Of a stretch of 64,000 nt of DNA, positions 11,759 through 64,000 are shown piece by piece. A program made the position numbers and the translations under genes. Under the pieces are notes generated by a model that was not told the origin of the DNA, did no database searches, and saw only the letters and a program-made list of their open reading frames with translations. How positions within the stretch are numbered: the stretch's first letter is position 1; each line of letters begins with the position of its first letter. This stretch comes from Piscinibacter lacus (GTDB taxonomy: Bacteria; Pseudomonadota; Gammaproteobacteria; Burkholderiales; Burkholderiaceae_C), in assembly GCF_016735685.1 (NCBI RefSeq), contig NZ_JAERRA010000002.1:1-64000 (forward strand), written 5' to 3'.

Positions 11759-14491
11759 ATGCGCGAAGGCACCGCCCCCCTGATCCGCCGCGAGGCCTAC
11801 ACCCCGCCGGCCTACCGCATCCCGGCCGTCGAGCTGGTCTTCGATCTGGACCCGGCCCGCACCGTGGTGCTGAGCCGGCTGAGCATCGAGCGCGATGCCG
11901 CCGCCGCGCCGCAGCCCCTGCGCCTGGTCGGCGAAGGCCTGAGCCTGGCCCGCGTGCTGGCCAATGGCCAGAGCGTGAGCTTCCGCGTCGACAAGGAAGA
12001 AGGCGGCCGCGAGGAGCTGGTGATCGAGCAGCCGCCCGAGGGCCGCTTCGTGCTGGAGATCAAGGTCGGCCTGGCGCCCGAGAAGAACACCGAGCTGCTC
12101 GGCCTCTACACCTCCGGCGGCGGCTTCTTCACCCAGTGCGAGGCCGAGGGCTTCCGCCGCATCAGCTACTTCCTCGACCGGCCCGACGTGATGTCGGTCT
12201 ACACCGTCACGCTGCGCGCCGACAAGGCCCGCTACCCGGTGCTGCTGGCCAACGGCAACCTGCAAAGCCAGCGCGATCTGAACGGCGGCCGGCACGAAGC
12301 CGTCTGGCACGACCCGCATCCCAAGCCCAGCTACCTCTTCGCCCTGGTGGCCGCCGATCTGGTGGCGCGCGAGCAGCGCATCCGCAGCCGCGCCGGCAGC
12401 GAGCATCTCTTGCAGGTCTGGGTGCGCGCCGGCGACCTCGACAAGACCGAGCATGCGATGCGCTCGCTGATGGCCTCGATCGCCTGGGACGAGGCGCGCT
12501 TCGGCCTGCCGCTGGACCTGGAGCGCTTCATGATCGTCGCGGTCAGCGACTTCAACATGGGCGCGATGGAGAACAAGGGGCTGAACATCTTCAACTCCAA
12601 GTTCGTGCTGGCCAGCCCGGCCACCGCGACCGATGTGGACTACGACGGCATCGAGAGCGTCGTCGCCCACGAGTACTTCCACAACTGGACCGGCAACCGC
12701 GTGACCTGCCGCGACTGGTTCCAGCTTTCGCTGAAGGAAGGCCTCACCGTCTTCCGCGACCAGCAGTTCAGCATGGACATGGCGGCCAGCCCTTCGGCCC
12801 GCGCGGTGCGCCGCATCGAGGACGTGCGCGGCCTGCGCCAGATGCAGTTCCCCGAGGATGCCGGCCCGATGGCCCATCCGGTGCGGCCCGATGCCTACCA
12901 GGCCATCGACAACTTCTACACCGCCACCGTCTACGAGAAGGGCGCCGAGGTCGTGCGCATGATGCACACCCTCGTCGGCGAGGCCGGCTTCCGCGCCGGC
13001 ATGGACCTCTACTTCCAGCGCCACGACGGCCAGGCCGTCACCTGCGACGACTTCGCCCAGGCGATTGCCGATGCCAACCCCGGCTCGGTGCTGGCGAAGC
13101 AGCTCGAAATCTTCAAGCGCTGGTATGCACAGGCCGGCACGCCGCGCCTGCAAGCGCGCAGCACTTGGGATGACCAAGCCGGCGCCTGGACGCTGACCCT
13201 GCGCCAGCACGGCCTGCCCAGCCCCGGCCAGCCCGAGAAGCAGCCCTGGCTGCTGCCGGTGCGCCTGGGCCTGCTCGATGCGGCCGGCCAGGCCCTGCCG
13301 CTGCAGCTCGACGGCGAAGACCCGGCCGGCGCCCCCACCGAGCGCGTGCTGGTGCTGGACGGCGCCGAGGCCCACTTCCGCTTCGTCGGCCTGCCGGCCG
13401 GGCCGGCGGCGCCGGTGCCCTCGCTGCTGCGCGGCTTCTCGGCGCCGGTGCTGCTGGACGACGGGCTGGACGCGGCCGGCCTGCTGCACCTGCTGCGCCA
13501 CGATGCCGACGCCTTCAAGCGCTGGGAAGCCGGCCAGCAGCTCATGCAGGCCGAGCTGCTGGCCCGCGTGCGCGCCGAGGGCCCGGCCGCCGCCGCGCCG
13601 TTGTCGGCCGGCCTGGTGCAGGCCCTGGCGGCCGTGCTGCGCGATGCCGGCTTGTCGCCCGCCTTCCGCGCCCTCGCCCTGAGCCTGCCCAGCGAAGGCC
13701 TGCTGGCCGATGCCCTGGCCGCCGAAGGCACGCCGCTTGACCCGCAGCGCGTGCATGCGGTGCGCGAATCGGCCCGCCAGCAGCTCGCGGCCGAGCTGGC
13801 CAGCGACTGGGCCGAGGCCTTCGAGGCCCATCCCGACCGCGGTGGCTACCGCCCCGACGCCGAAAGCATGGGCCGCCGCGCCCTGGCCAACCTGGCCCTG
13901 GCCATGCTGTGCCTGGACGCCACCCGCCGTGGCGACCCCGTCTGGCCCGGCCGCGCCTACCAGCGCGTGAAGGACGGCAAGCACATGAGCGAGCGCTTCG
14001 GCGCGCTCAGCGCCCTGGTTCACGCCCAGGCCGAGCTGGCCGGCCCGGCGCTGGAGCGCTTCCACGCCCTGTTCCGCGACGAGGCCCTGGTGATCGACAA
14101 GTGGTTCGCGCTGCAGGCCGCTGCGCCCGAACCGCTCGGCGCCCAGGCCGGCAGCGTGTTCCAGCGCGTGCGTGCCCTGTGCCTGCATCCGGACTTCACG
14201 CTGAAGAACCCCAACCGCGCGCGCAGCCTGCTGTTCAACCTGACCGTGCACAACCCGGCCGCCTTCCACCGCGCCGATGCCGCCGGCTATGTGCTGTGGG
14301 TCGAGAAGCTGGCCGAGATCGACGCCTTCAACCCCAAGCTGGCCGCCCGCTTCGCCCGCGCGATGGACCGCTGGCGCATCCTCGCCGAGCCCTACCGCAG
14401 TGCTGCGCTGGAGGCCCTGCAACGCGCCGCGGCGCGCAGCGAGGTGTCGGACGACCTGCGCGAGATCCTCGACCGCGCGCTCGCCGACTGA
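11759..14491 (+). CDS. pepN: aminopeptidase N (M1 family)
   Basis: A 910-residue zinc metallopeptidase that removes N-terminal residues from cytoplasmic peptides. Key motifs: the exopeptidase motif GAMEN near residue 268, and the zinc site HEYFH-x18-E beginning about residue 304 ([14 protein letters not shown], then [12 protein letters not shown]). Domains follow the E. coli PepN plan: N-terminal beta domain, catalytic domain, small beta domain and helical C-terminal domain. The ATG at 11759 starts just ahead of the conserved [10 protein letters not shown]; an in-frame ATG 48 bp upstream would add a Pro-rich stretch and is less likely. Confidence 0.96.
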
Positions 14492-17813: not shown

Positions 17814-19982
17814 ATGACCCTGCCCCCGCAGCCGCCCGAACGGCGCGCGATCCGCCCCCTGCCCGATGAACTCATCAGCCAGATCGCGGCCGGGGAGGTG
17901 GTCGAGCGCCCCGCCTCCGTGCTGCGCGAGCTCGTCGACAACGCGCTCGATGCCGGCGCCACGCAGATCACCGTCAAGCTCGAAGGCGGCGGCATCCGCC
18001 GCATCGTGGTGGAGGACGACGGCGCCGGCATCCCCGCCGCCGAACTGCCCCTGGCCCTGCAGCGCCATGCCACCAGCAAGATCGCCAGCCTGGGCGAGCT
18101 GGAAGCCGTGGCCAGCCTGGGCTTTCGCGGCGAGGCGCTGGCGGCGATCGCCTCCGTCTCGGAAATGAGCCTGGCCAGCCGCACCGCCGAGGCGCCCCAC
18201 GCCATGCGCCTTGACGCCCGCAGCGGCGAGCTGGCCGCCGCCGCCCGCGGCGTGGGCACCACGGTGGAAGTGCGCGAGCTCTTCTTCAACACCCCCGCCC
18301 GCCGCAAATTCCTCAAGAGCGAAGCCACCGAGCTGGCCCACGGCCTGGAAGCCCTGCGCCGCCACGCCCTGGCCCGGCCCGAGGTCGGCTTTGCCGTGTG
18401 GCATGAAGGCCGGCTGATCGCCCAGTGGCGCGCCCTGGCCCCGGACGCCGCCGACCCCGCCACCCCGCCCGCCGAGGCCGAAGCCCGCGCCCAGGCCCGC
18501 CTGGCCCAGCGGCTGGAAGCCGTGCTCGGCGCCGACTTCGTCCGCGGCAGCCGCCCCCTGCCCGCCCGCCGCCAGGGCGCGGTGGAAGTGGCCGGCCGCA
18601 TCGGCCTGCCCGACCACGCCCGCAGCCGCGCCGACCAGCAATACCTCTACCTGAACGGCCGCTACATCCGCGACAAGCTCATCGCCCACGCCGTGCGCAG
18701 CGCCTACGAAGACGTGCTGCACGGCCAGCGCCAGCCCATCTACTTGCTGTGGCTGAGCGTGCCGCCCGAGCGGGTGGACGTGAACGTGCACCCCGCCAAG
18801 GTGGAAGTGCGCTTCCGCGACGGCCGCGAAGTGCATCAGGCCGTCTTCCACGCGCTGGACGCCGCCCTGGCCGAACGCCGCCCCCAGGCCGCCGGCGCCG
18901 CGCCGCTGCTGGCGGCGCGCGGGCTGGCGCCGCTGGGGGAAGCATCCAGCGACGGCCTGGCCCCGGGGGCAGACGGCCCGGGCGCCTCGGCCACCGGGCC
19001 CTCCACCGCCTGGGCCGCAACGCCCGGAGCCCCCACCCCCGACCGGGCCGCGCCCGGCGCGCTGGCCGCCGGATGGCCCGAGCGCAGCGCCTCATCGCCC
19101 GGAACCGGCCCCACCCTGCCCTACCCCGCCCCGCCCGCCTGGCGCGGCAACAGCGCCCTGGACTTCGGCCGCCCGGCGCCCTTCAACGTGAACGAGCCCC
19201 CCGGCGCCTGGCGCCTGGCCGCCGACGCGCGGGCCGCGGCGGAAGCTGAAGCTGCGGCCCCCACCGGCCCCCAGCCCGCCCCCGAAGCCGGCGCACCCGG
19301 CCACGACCCCGCCCTCACGGGCGCAGCCGTCGGCCCCACCGCCACGCCGCGGTCGCCCGACGCGGACCCCACCCCCGCCTTGCCCGCCTCCGACGACGAC
19401 CGCCCCCTGGGCCGCGCCCTGGCCCAGCTCGGCGGCGTCTACCTGCTGGCCGAAAACCGCCAGGGCCTGCTCATCGTCGACATCCATGCCGCGCACGAAC
19501 GCGTCGTCTACGAACGCCTGAAAGCCCGGCATGCCGAGCTGGCCCTGTCCGCCCAGCCCCTGCTCATCCCCGTGGTGCTGCCGGCCACCCCCACCGAAAT
19601 CGCCACCGCCGAACAGCATGCCCAGGCCCTGAACCAGCTTGGCCTGGACGTGGCCCCGCTCTCCGCCACCGCCCTGGCCCTGCGCAGCCGCCCCGCCGCC
19701 CTGCCCGACGCCGACCTGCCCACCCTGCTGCGCGCCGTGCTGGCCGAACTCGCCCAGGTCGACGGCAGCCGCCTGGTCGAACGCGCCCGCGACGAACTGC
19801 TCGCCACCATGGCCTGCCACGGCGCCGTGCGCGCCAACCGCCGCCTCACCCTGCCTGAAATGGACGCCCTGCTGCGCGACATGGAAACCACCGCCCGCGC
19901 CGACCAATGCAACCACGGCCGGCCGACGTGGCGGCAGATCAGTTTGAGGGAGTTGGATGGGTTGTTTATGAGGGGGCGGTGA
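17814..19982 (+). CDS. mutL: DNA mismatch repair protein MutL (endonuclease type)
   Basis: A 722-residue mismatch repair factor that couples MutS recognition to strand removal. The GHKL ATPase domain comes first (QIAAGEVVERPASV, LVDNALDAGA, GFRGEAL). A long Pro/Ala/Gly-rich linker of about 180 residues explains the extra length over E. coli MutL (615). The C-terminal domain carries DIHAAHERVVYE near residue 556, a variant of the endonuclease motif DQHA-x2-E-x4-E with Ile for Gln, plus ACHGAVRAN-type and QCNHGRPT motifs. It is thus likely an active nicking MutL, as in bacteria lacking MutH. The last 13 codons use AT-richer codons than the rest. Confidence 0.95.
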   Translation: MTLPPQPPERRAIRPLPDELISQIAAGEVVERPASVLRELVDNALDAGATQITVKLEGGGIRRIVVEDDGAGIPAAELPLALQRHATSKIASLGELEAVASLGFRGEALAAIASVSEMSLASRTAEAPHAMRLDARSGELAAAARGVGTTVEVRELFFNTPARRKFLKSEATELAHGLEALRRHALARPEVGFAVWHEGRLIAQWRALAPDAADPATPPAEAEARAQARLAQRLEAVLGADFVRGSRPLPARRQGAVEVAGRIGLPDHARSRADQQYLYLNGRYIRDKLIAHAVRSAYEDVLHGQRQPIYLLWLSVPPERVDVNVHPAKVEVRFRDGREVHQAVFHALDAALAERRPQAAGAAPLLAARGLAPLGEASSDGLAPGADGPGASATGPSTAWAATPGAPTPDRAAPGALAAGWPERSASSPGTGPTLPYPAPPAWRGNSALDFGRPAPFNVNEPPGAWRLAADARAAAEAEAAAPTGPQPAPEAGAPGHDPALTGAAVGPTATPRSPDADPTPALPASDDDRPLGRALAQLGGVYLLAENRQGLLIVDIHAAHERVVYERLKARHAELALSAQPLLIPVVLPATPTEIATAEQHAQALNQLGLDVAPLSATALALRSRPAALPDADLPTLLRAVLAELAQVDGSRLVERARDELLATMACHGAVRANRRLTLPEMDALLRDMETTARADQCNHGRPTWRQISLRELDGLFMRGR

Positions 19983-19987
19983 CCGGG

Positions 19988-20596
19988 TTAGGCCTCACCG
20001 TCGGCTGGTGGTTCACCAGTTGATTCTTCGATGACTTCTTCGACGAGACGCGTGAACTTTGGACTTGACAGGAGCGATCCGCTTGTGGCGTGTTCCAGTT
20101 CATTGATGCCTTCCTTGATAAGTGGAAGGTAATCTGCAACTGAGCGATGAGGCTTGCCCCCGAGGGGCTTGCGCATCATCCAGTGTTCGTTGTTCGTGAA
20201 GAACTTGAAGTGCAGTAGTTCGCCCAACTGTCCGTGAATCGCTGCTAGGCGCCCCGAGACCGGTGTGAACTGTAAGACTGTGGCGCGGCCGCGCTGTTCG
20301 TTTGTCAGTCGTACTGTGCTTGCTCGCCCTGCATCCGGATCAATCGCCAGAAGGCGCTTCAACAGCTTTGTTGCAACGTAATCCGAGATGTCCTTCTTGT
20401 CCTTGCCGATCGACTTGAGTGCTGGGCCAAGGTACTCGTTTAGCCGTGCTTCGATCCCAAATCTCAATTCGAGCGCTGCGTAAAAAATATGTTCCAGAGC
20501 TTCTGTAGTCTCAAACGCCTCGATGTGCTGCTTTGATCGAGCGAGGAAGGATCGTGCCCCAGTGTGGAAGCGCAGAAAAGGGTAGGAATTGTCCAT
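19988..20596 (-). CDS. hypothetical protein in integron-like cassette
   Basis: A 202-residue, largely helical protein that I do not recognise. It has no signal peptide or membrane segment and reads as cytoplasmic. Its N-terminal half is rich in Ala, Leu and Glu (EALEHIFYAALELRF). A possible RLAAIH lies mid-protein but is not a convincing catalytic motif. The ATG at 20596 lies 15 bp after the attC R' side, a normal cassette position. The TAA stop is embedded in the GCCTAAC R'' box of what should be the next attC, but mutL sequence begins immediately after. Codon usage is far less GC-biased than the flanking genes. Confidence 0.7.
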   Translation of the reverse strand: MDNSYPFLRFHTGARSFLARSKQHIEAFETTEALEHIFYAALELRFGIEARLNEYLGPALKSIGKDKKDISDYVATKLLKRLLAIDPDAGRASTVRLTNEQRGRATVLQFTPVSGRLAAIHGQLGELLHFKFFTNNEHWMMRKPLGGKPHRSVADYLPLIKEGINELEHATSGSLLSSPKFTRLVEEVIEESTGEPPADGEA

Positions 20597-20611
20597 CGCA
20601 ATGCTCGTGAG

Positions 20612-20682
20612 GCCTAGCGTTTGAATTCACCAGACGCTGCGCGGCTTTATCGCGCAGCGTGCGGTGGAATGATTGGTTAGGC
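20612..20682 (-). repeat. integron attC recombination site
   Basis: On the minus strand the site begins with R'' GCCTAAC and ends with GCTAGGC, a variant of R' GTTRRRY. Inside, L'' TTCCACC pairs with the complement of L' TTCACC, leaving one extra base on the R''-proximal arm; this extrahelical base is an attC hallmark and sets the orientation. A 10-bp central stem (ACGCTGCGCG with its complement) closes the fold, and unpaired spacers separate the R and L boxes. Length is 71 bp. The R' core has C where the conserved GTT has its first T, so activity may be reduced. Confidence 0.8.
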
Positions 20683-20691
20683 ACCGGCGGG

Positions 20692-21237
20692 TCACTTGAG
20701 GGCACGAAGAAGACTCAACGTGGCTTCGCCGAGCCTTCCGTCGCGCGGAATACCAGTAGCGCCTTGATGAGGGGCGCCAGCGAGTTGCTCCACGAACGCG
20801 GCGGCATCGTGGATGATGCTCCGTACTTCTTTCCAAGTGATATTGAGCGGGCCGAATACATCTTTCTCGGATAGGGCGGCGTCGATGTGGGCAACCGTCT
20901 TATGGCGCACCGTGATGAGAGGGGTCGCCCGACTAGCCAATGAAGAGAAGCGTGCCTCGATATCTTGAAACTTCGTGGGCTCGGCAATGCTGCGCACGAC
21001 CGCCAGATAGTTTGGTAACGACGACGAATCAGAGCGTTTGTCGAACAGGTGCGCCAAGTAGATGAAGCAGGCGGTGTAGTGCGCATCTTGCGATGCGCGG
21101 AAGAAGTCGCTGTGCTTGCTCATGACGCCAGCGAGTTGTGGCTTGGCATCACTCACTTGTGCCCACCAAATGTCATAGTGGGCTTTTGCTCCAGTGGCCG
21201 AGCTTATGAGATCGGAAAGAATCTTGGCGGATTTCAT
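20692..21237 (-). CDS. AbiU2/HEPN-like protein in integron-like cassette
   Basis: A 181-residue helical protein. Residues VRHKTVAHID fit the R-[NDH]-x4-H catalytic signature of HEPN ribonucleases, and the arrangement (long helices before, then a short C-terminal helix pair) resembles AbiU2-type HEPN proteins, known from abortive infection and toxin systems. No antitoxin or nucleotidyltransferase partner is adjacent. The ATG at 21237 is preferred because it lies 2 bp after the lipoprotein gene stop; an alternative start 45 bp upstream would overlap that gene. The stop is followed within 10 bp by the attC R'' box. Family assignment rests on the motif alone. Confidence 0.55.
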   Translation of the reverse strand: MKSAKILSDLISSATGAKAHYDIWWAQVSDAKPQLAGVMSKHSDFFRASQDAHYTACFIYLAHLFDKRSDSSSLPNYLAVVRSIAEPTKFQDIEARFSSLASRATPLITVRHKTVAHIDAALSEKDVFGPLNITWKEVRSIIHDAAAFVEQLAGAPHQGATGIPRDGRLGEATLSLLRALK

Positions 21238-21239
21238 CG

Positions 21240-21659
21240 TCAATAGGTGCTGCAATTCACCGAGCTGCCTATTGTTGTGCAATTGGTCGTTGTAGGTTTT
21301 TGCTTAATAATAACGGGCGCAGGAGTCTGAGGCGGAGGTACATAGCGTTCCCCTGTGAATTTGAAGTCGGGCATTTTTCCGTCTGATGGACCACAGGCAT
21401 AGGTCATGGAGTACCAAGTTACAGGGCCAGGCAGAATATCTGCAATCAATCCACCGGCATGACTTTCGCTTGATATGACACGATAACTGCCTCCGCTGGG
21501 GCAAGTCTGAGATGCCTGCTCAAAACACTTTGACGGATCGGAAGTGCATTTGACAGTCTTTATGGATGTGCCATCTGGCGCTTGGTATTCCTTGACGCTG
21601 GTAGTTGCGCAACCTGTAAGAAGTACCGCCATAACTAAGGGGATGGATCGAAATTTCAT
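21240..21659 (-). CDS. small cysteine-rich lipoprotein
   Basis: A 139-residue predicted lipoprotein with signal MKFRSIPLVMAVLLTGC (lipobox LTGC). The mature part has several cysteines, the segment PGPVTWYSMTYACGPSDGK, a Pro-rich stretch, and a C-terminus NCTTIGSSVNCSTY of a type seen in unnamed proteobacterial lipoproteins. Function is unknown. A GAGGAG ribosome site precedes the ATG. It runs into the HEPN-like gene with a 2-bp gap, so the two are co-translated or form a two-gene cassette. Codon use is AT-richer than the chromosome around it. Confidence 0.75.
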   Translation of the reverse strand: MKFRSIPLVMAVLLTGCATTSVKEYQAPDGTSIKTVKCTSDPSKCFEQASQTCPSGGSYRVISSESHAGGLIADILPGPVTWYSMTYACGPSDGKMPDFKFTGERYVPPPQTPAPVIIKQKPTTTNCTTIGSSVNCSTY

Positions 21660-21973
21660 TGTTTGCTCCTCATGTTGGGCCAGGCATGATGCTGTGCCCG
21701 ACGTACTTTAGACATCAACCCAGCACCTGCCGCTTGACGCCCAATGTTCCAAACGCGCCGACGTTACACGCTCCGGCCTCCTGAGGGCGGCCCCCTCCTT
21801 CGGGGCACTTGCCAAGCGCATTAGGCGGCTCATTCGAACAAGGCCGATGGCATGTCGCCGGACCGACGTCGTTCCACGGCCCGGCCAAGCTTTGACTGAC
21901 ACCTGCGGCCGTTTCGGCACTTGCGCCTGGGCTCAGGCTGCCGGCGGCACGGATCTGGCTCGCTCCCTCGTCC
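21660..21973. other. right flank of the island, no gene
   Basis: No gene is supported. On the minus strand GCCTAAT (about 21824-21830) and ATTGGGC (21738-21744) resemble degenerate attC outer boxes about 90 bp apart with GC-rich hairpins between them, but neither has the GTT core. Composition switches back to high GC across this stretch. The right half is the upstream region of ynfA. Confidence 0.4.
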
Positions 21974-22309
21974 ATGGACCTTCTCAAAACCTTCAGCCTC
22001 TTCGTGCTCACCGCCCTGGCCGAGATCGTCGGCTGCTACTTGCCCAGCCTCTGGCTCAGCCAGGGGCGCAGCGCCTGGTGGCTGTTGCCGGGTGCCGCCA
22101 GCCTGGCCCTGTTCGCGTGGTTGCTCAGCCTGCATCCGGCGGCTTCCGGCCGGGTCTATGCGGCGTATGGCGGGGTCTACATCGCGGTGGCCCTGCTGTG
22201 GCTGTGGGGCGTGGACGGCCTCAAGCCCCGGCCCAGCGACTGGCTCGGGGCGGGCCTGGCCCTGGCGGGGATGGCGGTGATCGTGATGGGTGGGCGAGAG
22301 GGTGGCTGA
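21974..22309 (+). CDS. ynfA: YnfA family (UPF0060) small membrane protein
   Basis: A 111-residue protein with four transmembrane helices and the family segments [25 protein letters not shown] and [11 protein letters not shown]. YnfA proteins resemble small multidrug resistance transporters, and some export dyes or antimicrobials; the physiological substrate is unclear. The gene stands alone between the cassette island and the pseudouridine synthase gene. Confidence 0.9.
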
Positions 22310-63756: not shown

Positions 63757-64000
63757 TCAGAGGCTGAGCCGGGCACGGGTCTCGGGCAGCGGACGGCCCT
63801 CGGTGTCCCAGCCGCGGATCGCGTAGTACTTCGGCAGCATCTCCGGCAGCTTGTTGACCAGGCCGGTGGCCGGGCCGGTCTTGGCCGGCTCGTTCAGCAG
63901 GCGCGGCGGCAGCGAGTCGTCCTTGGCGGTGAAGCCGGCCGCATTGTTGAACTCGCGCTCCATGTTCCAGATGCGCTCGCCGATCTCGTTCAGGTTGTCG
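63757..64000 (-). CDS. aldehyde:ferredoxin oxidoreductase, C-terminal part (gene leaves the window)
   Basis: About 81 C-terminal residues, on the minus strand, with the start beyond position 64000. The segments [28 protein letters not shown] and [21 protein letters not shown] match the conserved end of tungsten-dependent aldehyde:ferredoxin oxidoreductases (family end pattern: LxExYxxRGWDxxGxP). It would oxidise aldehydes to acids. It is 134 bp upstream of the AorC-like gene. Confidence 0.85.

Follow-up and report, generated by a model that had tools for sequence, protein, structure and literature searches.

A gene cassette island beside mutL suggests that one integron integrase stocks many attI-type docks in Aquariibacter

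Between mutL (17814..19982, plus strand) and ynfA (21974..22309, plus strand) of the 64-kb window, as we call the whole stretch of DNA analyzed here, lies a block of low GC content carrying three minus-strand open reading frames at 19988-20596, 20692-21282, and 21240-21659. The GC fraction was 0.50-0.58 in 500-base windows within 20000-21749, compared to 0.67-0.86 in windows clear of the block on both sides, and the description of this block in an earlier note on the sequence was thereby confirmed. The left neighbor was recognized by MutL_C and other Pfam matches and the right neighbor by PF02694 (127 bits). When the flanks were aligned with those of the sister species Aquariibacter albus, homology stopped at the mutL stop codon, and the right flank with ynfA was conserved at 92-97% from about position 21698 onward. 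On the minus strand the block divides into cassette 1 (20618..21701), which holds two genes and an attC site and is limited by an attI core and an attC core, and the remaining part of cassette 2 (19987..20617), which begins with CTAGGC after the attC core and holds one gene and a truncated attC. The block is bordered by an orphan attI-type site (21696..21848, minus strand) with the core GTCGGGC at 21702-21696, which was recognized by profile matches and alignment. Instead of G^TT at both ends, cassette 1 has altered cores, namely GTC on the attI side and GCT on the attC side. A scan of the 64-kb window at Rfam gathering thresholds returned four tRNAs only, with no match at the island, and a sigma-70 promoter scan found no Pc-like promoter at the window attI-type site.

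Gene 1 (21240..21659, minus strand) encodes a small lipoprotein-like protein of 139 residues with 196 homologues and no Pfam match. Gene 2 (20692..21237, minus strand) encodes an AbiU2-type HEPN protein of 181 residues (PF18734, 59.1 bits against a cut-off of 26.8); its probable start is the ATG at 21237 rather than the limit of the open reading frame at 21282, since its close homologues are mostly 181 residues long. Gene 3 (19988..20596, minus strand) encodes a protein of 202 residues that matched neither Pfam nor NCBIfam and returned nothing at E ≤ 0.001 in Foldseek, and to which we tentatively assign a HEPN-like fold. None of the three genes was matched by PADLOC. Judged by family and fold, cargo of an AbiU2-type HEPN protein together with a HEPN-like one probably has a phage-defence or toxin-like function. 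No relatives of the island genes were found in viral contigs, and none of genes 2 and 3 on plasmids, where gene 1 had a single match (39.6%, Paracoccus).

The earlier note had also described a well-formed attC at 20612..20682 and named a covariance-model match there as a check. The site (minus strand, 71 nt) proved real by covariance model, geometry, and folding, with one correction: its R' box is GCTAGGC, one change from GTTAGGC, so that the core is mutated. The covariance model, R1, was trained on 17 attC sites from other Burkholderiales integrons and from the genome's own integron, the window site being excluded. It scored the site at 32.8 bits (E = 3.1e-5 over 128,159 bases, and E = 7.3e-4 in a genome-scale search), and this was the only match in the window at E ≤ 10. 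Model R1 was built from shortened arms and misses long-stem attC sites, such as those of the genome's own integron at 11906-12034, which went unlisted, and at 13223-13351, which scored weakly; the attC counts given here are therefore lower bounds. The site has the geometry R''-5 nt-L''...L'-6 nt-R' also found in integron attC sites, and R'' and L'' are complementary to R' and L', with one extra-helical base in L'' and one mismatch in R'. Such a geometry arose in 3 of 2000 Markov-1 shuffles of the island. Over the full 64 kb it arose in 5 of 60 shuffled windows, and the scan gave a second, implausible match at 63892-63952; geometry alone is thus not rare across 64 kb, and the model score is the better test. 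Folding is slightly more favorable for the plus strand (-19.5 kcal/mol, z = -4.3), the one that would recombine as the bottom strand, than for the minus strand (-17.9 kcal/mol, z = -3.6).

Exact GCCTAAC boxes were located by pattern search at 19987..19993 and 20676..20682, precisely where the earlier note had placed two R'' boxes, but the 7-mer by itself is not significant (2 seen versus 2.16 expected). The box at 19987, on the minus strand and 4 nt from the mutL stop codon, gains weight because the TAA stop codon of gene 3 falls within it. The attC to which it would belong ends 2 nt beyond the box, and a truncation at R'' plus CC would fit an IS insertion followed by a deletion. The locus holds one complete and one truncated attC, and IntegronFinder 2 by default requires two attC sites for a CALIN, according to its description (PMC9024848).

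No intI was found in the window by tblastn, and the attI-type site at this locus accordingly does not stand next to an integrase gene as in a complete integron. The window is on contig C2, and the sole match in the genome above the integron family cut-off is an intI on contig C1 (C1:2018495-2019436, 446.6 bits), which encodes an intact, full-length integrase of the TIGR02249 family. The proposal that the island genes are integron cassettes with no intI alongside is borne out by the attC and by this location of intI, while the idea that the integron had been lost from the lineage is not. An intact IntI is also carried by A. albus SJAQ100; the two proteins of 327 residues are identical at 311/327 positions, and residues 15-325 align to Vibrio IntI4 in the PDB.

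Examination of the mutL locus in A. albus revealed a MutL that is 96% identical and, past its stop codon, a different insert, which holds genes for a GmrSD_N protein and a RiboL-PSP-type HEPN protein, a 102-aa open reading frame, and IS110-like sequence. Homology resumes at about window position 21698, and in both species it stops at the same attI-type core. The two species therefore carry different cargo at this place, which we refer to as the mutL dock. The cassette interpretation would have been undermined had the same three genes occupied this locus in relatives without attC sites; the sister species has other genes here, and among 399 genomes of the order, genes 1 and 3 were found in the window's own genome only and gene 2 in four. 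No attC was recognized at the sister mutL dock. Past its HEPN gene, the box GCCCAAC, which resembles R'', is extended by CC and borders the end of the IS110-like sequence. As the same junction of R'', two or three C, and an IS end occurs at dock A of the window's genome and at dock C of the sister, described below, an attC at the sister mutL dock was probably broken by an IS.

At E ≤ 1, model R1 gave eight matches in the sister genome and three in the window's own genome. Each of the 11 falls at the integron, at the mutL dock, or at one of four additional loci, A to D, the docks having been located by following these matches. Orthologous flanks were found for each of the four: dock A is at 1.58 Mb of sister contig C1 and 0.29 Mb of own contig C2, dock B on sister contig C8 and at 0.107 Mb of own C1, dock C on sister contig C7 and at 0.361 Mb of own C1, and dock D at 0.796 Mb of sister C1 and 1.857 Mb of own C1. 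The geometry scan added one attC each at sister docks A and B, and no attC was recognized at own docks B, C, and D or at the sister integron.

Upstream of the cassettes at docks A, C, and mutL is one repeated sequence, ending in TGATGYCTAAAGTAYG followed by TT. In BLAST alignments, docks A and C share about 270 bp of the repeat at 80-94% identity, and the similarity to the mutL site covers about 50 bp. Within the 270-bp repeat (L180 7669-7948, L182 5477-5748), a strong terminator-like hairpin was observed upstream of attI. A DNA profile trained on docks A and C only (five sequences) matched the window border at 21832-21700 (E = 9e-10) and the sister mutL border (E = 7.6e-8), and gave E values of 0.0029 for the own intI attI, 0.059 for own dock D, and 0.16 for the sister intI attI. 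With the two mutL copies included, the E values were 3e-5 for own dock D, 1.3e-4 for the own intI attI, and 8.4e-4 for the sister intI attI, and a profile including the window copy extended the match in the window to 21848-21698. Control loci from other genera gave E values no better than 2.4 (79 mutL loci, 1,175,069 bases) and 2.8 (intI loci, 241,793 bases). When the window border was compared directly with regions upstream of intI, the best score of 26 was not significant against shuffles (19.6 +/- 2.3, largest 30), and the homology of the window border to the intI attI of its lineage thus runs through the A and C copies represented in the profile.

Neither dock B of either species nor sister dock D was found by the profile. 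Sister dock B carries GTCCATTACACGTTAG, a 16-nt exact match to the sister intI attI at its core, and sister dock D carries an end similar to this one, its assignment being made through the own copy of dock D. On these comparisons, the attI nature of docks A, C, mutL, and own D is well supported, and that of dock B and sister D is likely. Since the copies found are those reached by long DNA queries and by profiles over the fetched loci, six attI loci are a minimum. An initial view that the right flank was unrelated to attI was dropped once the dispersed copies appeared.

Insertions start at a GTT core in 9 of the 12 tabulated dock copies, the exceptions being own mutL (GTC), own B (ATT), and own C, where IS-like sequence stands at the core; own dock D, outside this table, has lost its core. 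GTTRRRY was considered as a common dock core and rejected, because GTT alone is constant in the core table and RRRY fails in several copies. A search for intI remnants by tblastn at E ≤ 1 over 15 loci matched the two integron loci only, with none at the other docks.

Several further features of the inserts were recorded. At own dock C (L213 3847-3869), IS-like sequence interrupts attI exactly at the core, and the adjoining 1500 bp are 98.8% identical to an IS110-bearing part of the sister integron. Own dock A has two attI-type copies, A1 and A2, in tandem (L197 12040 and 11430), and between them is a cassette with a glycine-rich open reading frame and an attC-like end. The dock A insert also contains a large open reading frame with AAA_16/nSTAND1 similarity (L197 7383-9932), possibly a defence gene, and IS110-family transposases were found in inserts at L197 6083-7033 and L145 4910-5926. 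About 33 kb from intI, a stretch of the window's genome (G000:C1:2051836-2051949, L199) is 74-76% similar to parts of the sister A and B inserts, and no attC was recognized in it by the geometry scan.

The own intI attI and own dock A2 hold copies of a 284-bp cassette devoid of open reading frames (L006 14025-14308 and L197 11146-11429) that show no difference from one core to the other, and past the downstream core the sequences at the two places are unrelated. In the sister species, this cassette is present at 93.5% and begins at the core of dock D (L183 from 4645). This is the pattern that one cassette inserted at different attI sites would leave, and the identity of the copies at A2 and at the intI attI ties the orphan docks to the integron. 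The flanks of dock D and the integron are also exchanged between the species. The distal flank of sister dock D is that of the own integron (91.8% over 2,306 sister bases; L183 7693-9998 with L006 9076-6760), and the sister integron has the distal flank of own dock D (94.1% over 2,841 columns; L145 516-3354 with L214 9501-6664). Because the integron and dock D face each other, swapped distal flanks are the mark of an inversion between them. Read from the end flanks, the exchange is as expected of an inversion of about 154 kb (153.9 kb in the window's genome and 152.7 kb in the sister) with its breakpoints inside both inserts, although assembly error may be an alternative source of the swap.

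The above considerations lead us to the reading, to which we assign a probability of roughly 80%, that the island is a cassette array at an orphan attI, one of at least six docks in Aquariibacter, and that the single integrase acts on it in trans. With rather less assurance, we think it probable that these loci make up a distributed integron, in which one trans-acting integrase would serve at least six attI docks, each loading and unloading independently, and in which recombination between docks would also rearrange the chromosome, the inversion of about 154 kb separating the two species being a case in point. The earlier note had taken the island for an isolated cluster or a relic. An intact intI on contig C1, and a border formed by the island's own attI-type site as one of several copies, speak against that view, and the cluster would become one dock of a distributed integron, now decaying.

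Other origins of the island were weighed. Several complete integrons may have been duplicated or acquired and all but one may have lost intI, in which case the island would be a relic that the present integrase need not use. The resemblance of the orphan sites to the attI beside intI approximately as far as the start of that gene, the degenerate window copy, and the tandem of A1 and A2 in the window's own genome are all in keeping with such a history. We nonetheless consider it unlikely, given that the tblastn search detected no intI remnant at the other docks, that docks A and C share not intI but the repeat of ~270 bp with its terminator-like hairpin, and that the identical cassette at A2 and the intI attI indicates recent exchange.

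Off-target insertion, in which cassettes would have landed by chance in an ordinary stretch of the genome with no genuine attI, was our first idea and was dropped after the dispersed attI-type copies appeared. That integrases of class 1 and of Vibrio insert cassettes in this way is established, the attG targets are by definition neither attI nor attC, and the window core does depart from GTT. The border of the island, however, has homology over about 130-150 bp with the other docks and, at a weaker level, with the intI attI, so that it falls outside the definition of attG, and both species have an insert at this place; we regard chance insertion as very improbable. Even smaller odds attach to an ordinary defence-gene hotspot beside mutL, where low-GC genes would gather by homologous or illegitimate recombination and one would happen to have an attC. 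It would accommodate the variable length of the mutL-miaA interval across relatives, the HEPN and GmrSD-type genes at the site in two species, and a sister insert with IS110-like sequence and no recognized attC, but not the end of homology at the same attI-type core in both species, the cassette orientation of the genes, or the intact attC geometry.

Under the reading that we prefer, of a single integrase acting in trans, the enzyme made from its gene at another locus would recombine attI with attC at the G^TT core and so insert circular cassettes into the docks. The docks would have been seeded by duplication of attI without intI, as the lack of intI remnants at all other docks suggests. Each would exchange its cassettes independently, which would account for the other cargo of the sister species at the same place. 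Recombination at the docks is deduced from sequence comparison throughout. The window dock itself appears to be decaying, its attI core having changed to GTC, its attC core to GCT, and its last attC having been truncated. With both cores changed, it would now be frozen, and given the truncated last attC as well, its two cassettes have probably become fixed as ordinary chromosomal genes.

The island shares with sedentary chromosomal integrons its attC sites, an attI-type site, cassettes that start at the core, and an intact TIGR02249 integrase in the genome, and it differs from them in that attI and cassettes occur here at a locus without intI and in that several further attI-type loci exist. 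Integrase-driven insertion of cassettes outside the integron, at attG sites, has reportedly been described before; the likeness to the present case is insertion by an integrase outside the integron, whereas attG is not attI and the docks form a sequence family with the intI attI. The available text of one report describes off-target integrase activity at GTT triplets (PMC10127599). Xanthomonas CALINs are described, in the part of the report available, as occupying conserved positions away from intI in about half of genomes, in contrast to scattered attG insertions (PMC12444791). They resemble the present case in having cassettes away from intI in genomes that keep intI, at positions conserved across species, and differ from it in that only one complete attC is present here and that the accessible portions of that report do not mention an attI-type border. 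In the delta-attI-type cassettes of mobile integrons, as far as the accessible text of their description goes (PMC12901181), attI sequence likewise occurs away from its usual place, but there as the 3' end of a cassette within an array and here as an upstream dock of separate arrays. The tandem of A1, cassette, attC, and A2 at own dock A could be related in origin to such cassettes. Elements of the IS1111-attC type are known to break attC sites, according to the available text (PMC11187229), and IS110-type elements lie directly after R'' in attC sites at own dock A, sister dock C, and the sister mutL dock, the assignment here being at the IS110 level. In the open-access literature, as far as its available texts extend and with subscription papers mostly outside it, no description was found of one integrase serving several attI docks within a genome.

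In the usual view, an integron has one entry point, the attI linked to intI, and cassettes elsewhere are relics or chance attG insertions. Here, cassettes away from intI stand at a recurring attI-type dock that is conserved between species, a pattern suggesting that a single enzyme supplies many loading docks, which in this genus lie scattered at loci far from the only integrase gene of the genome. If this is true, it would explain the fixed places of intI-less cassette clusters, and CALINs could be examined for a border of the attI family on their upstream side. Large inversions would then have a simple cause in repeated docks of opposite orientation, and one integrase would gain several independent expression sites.
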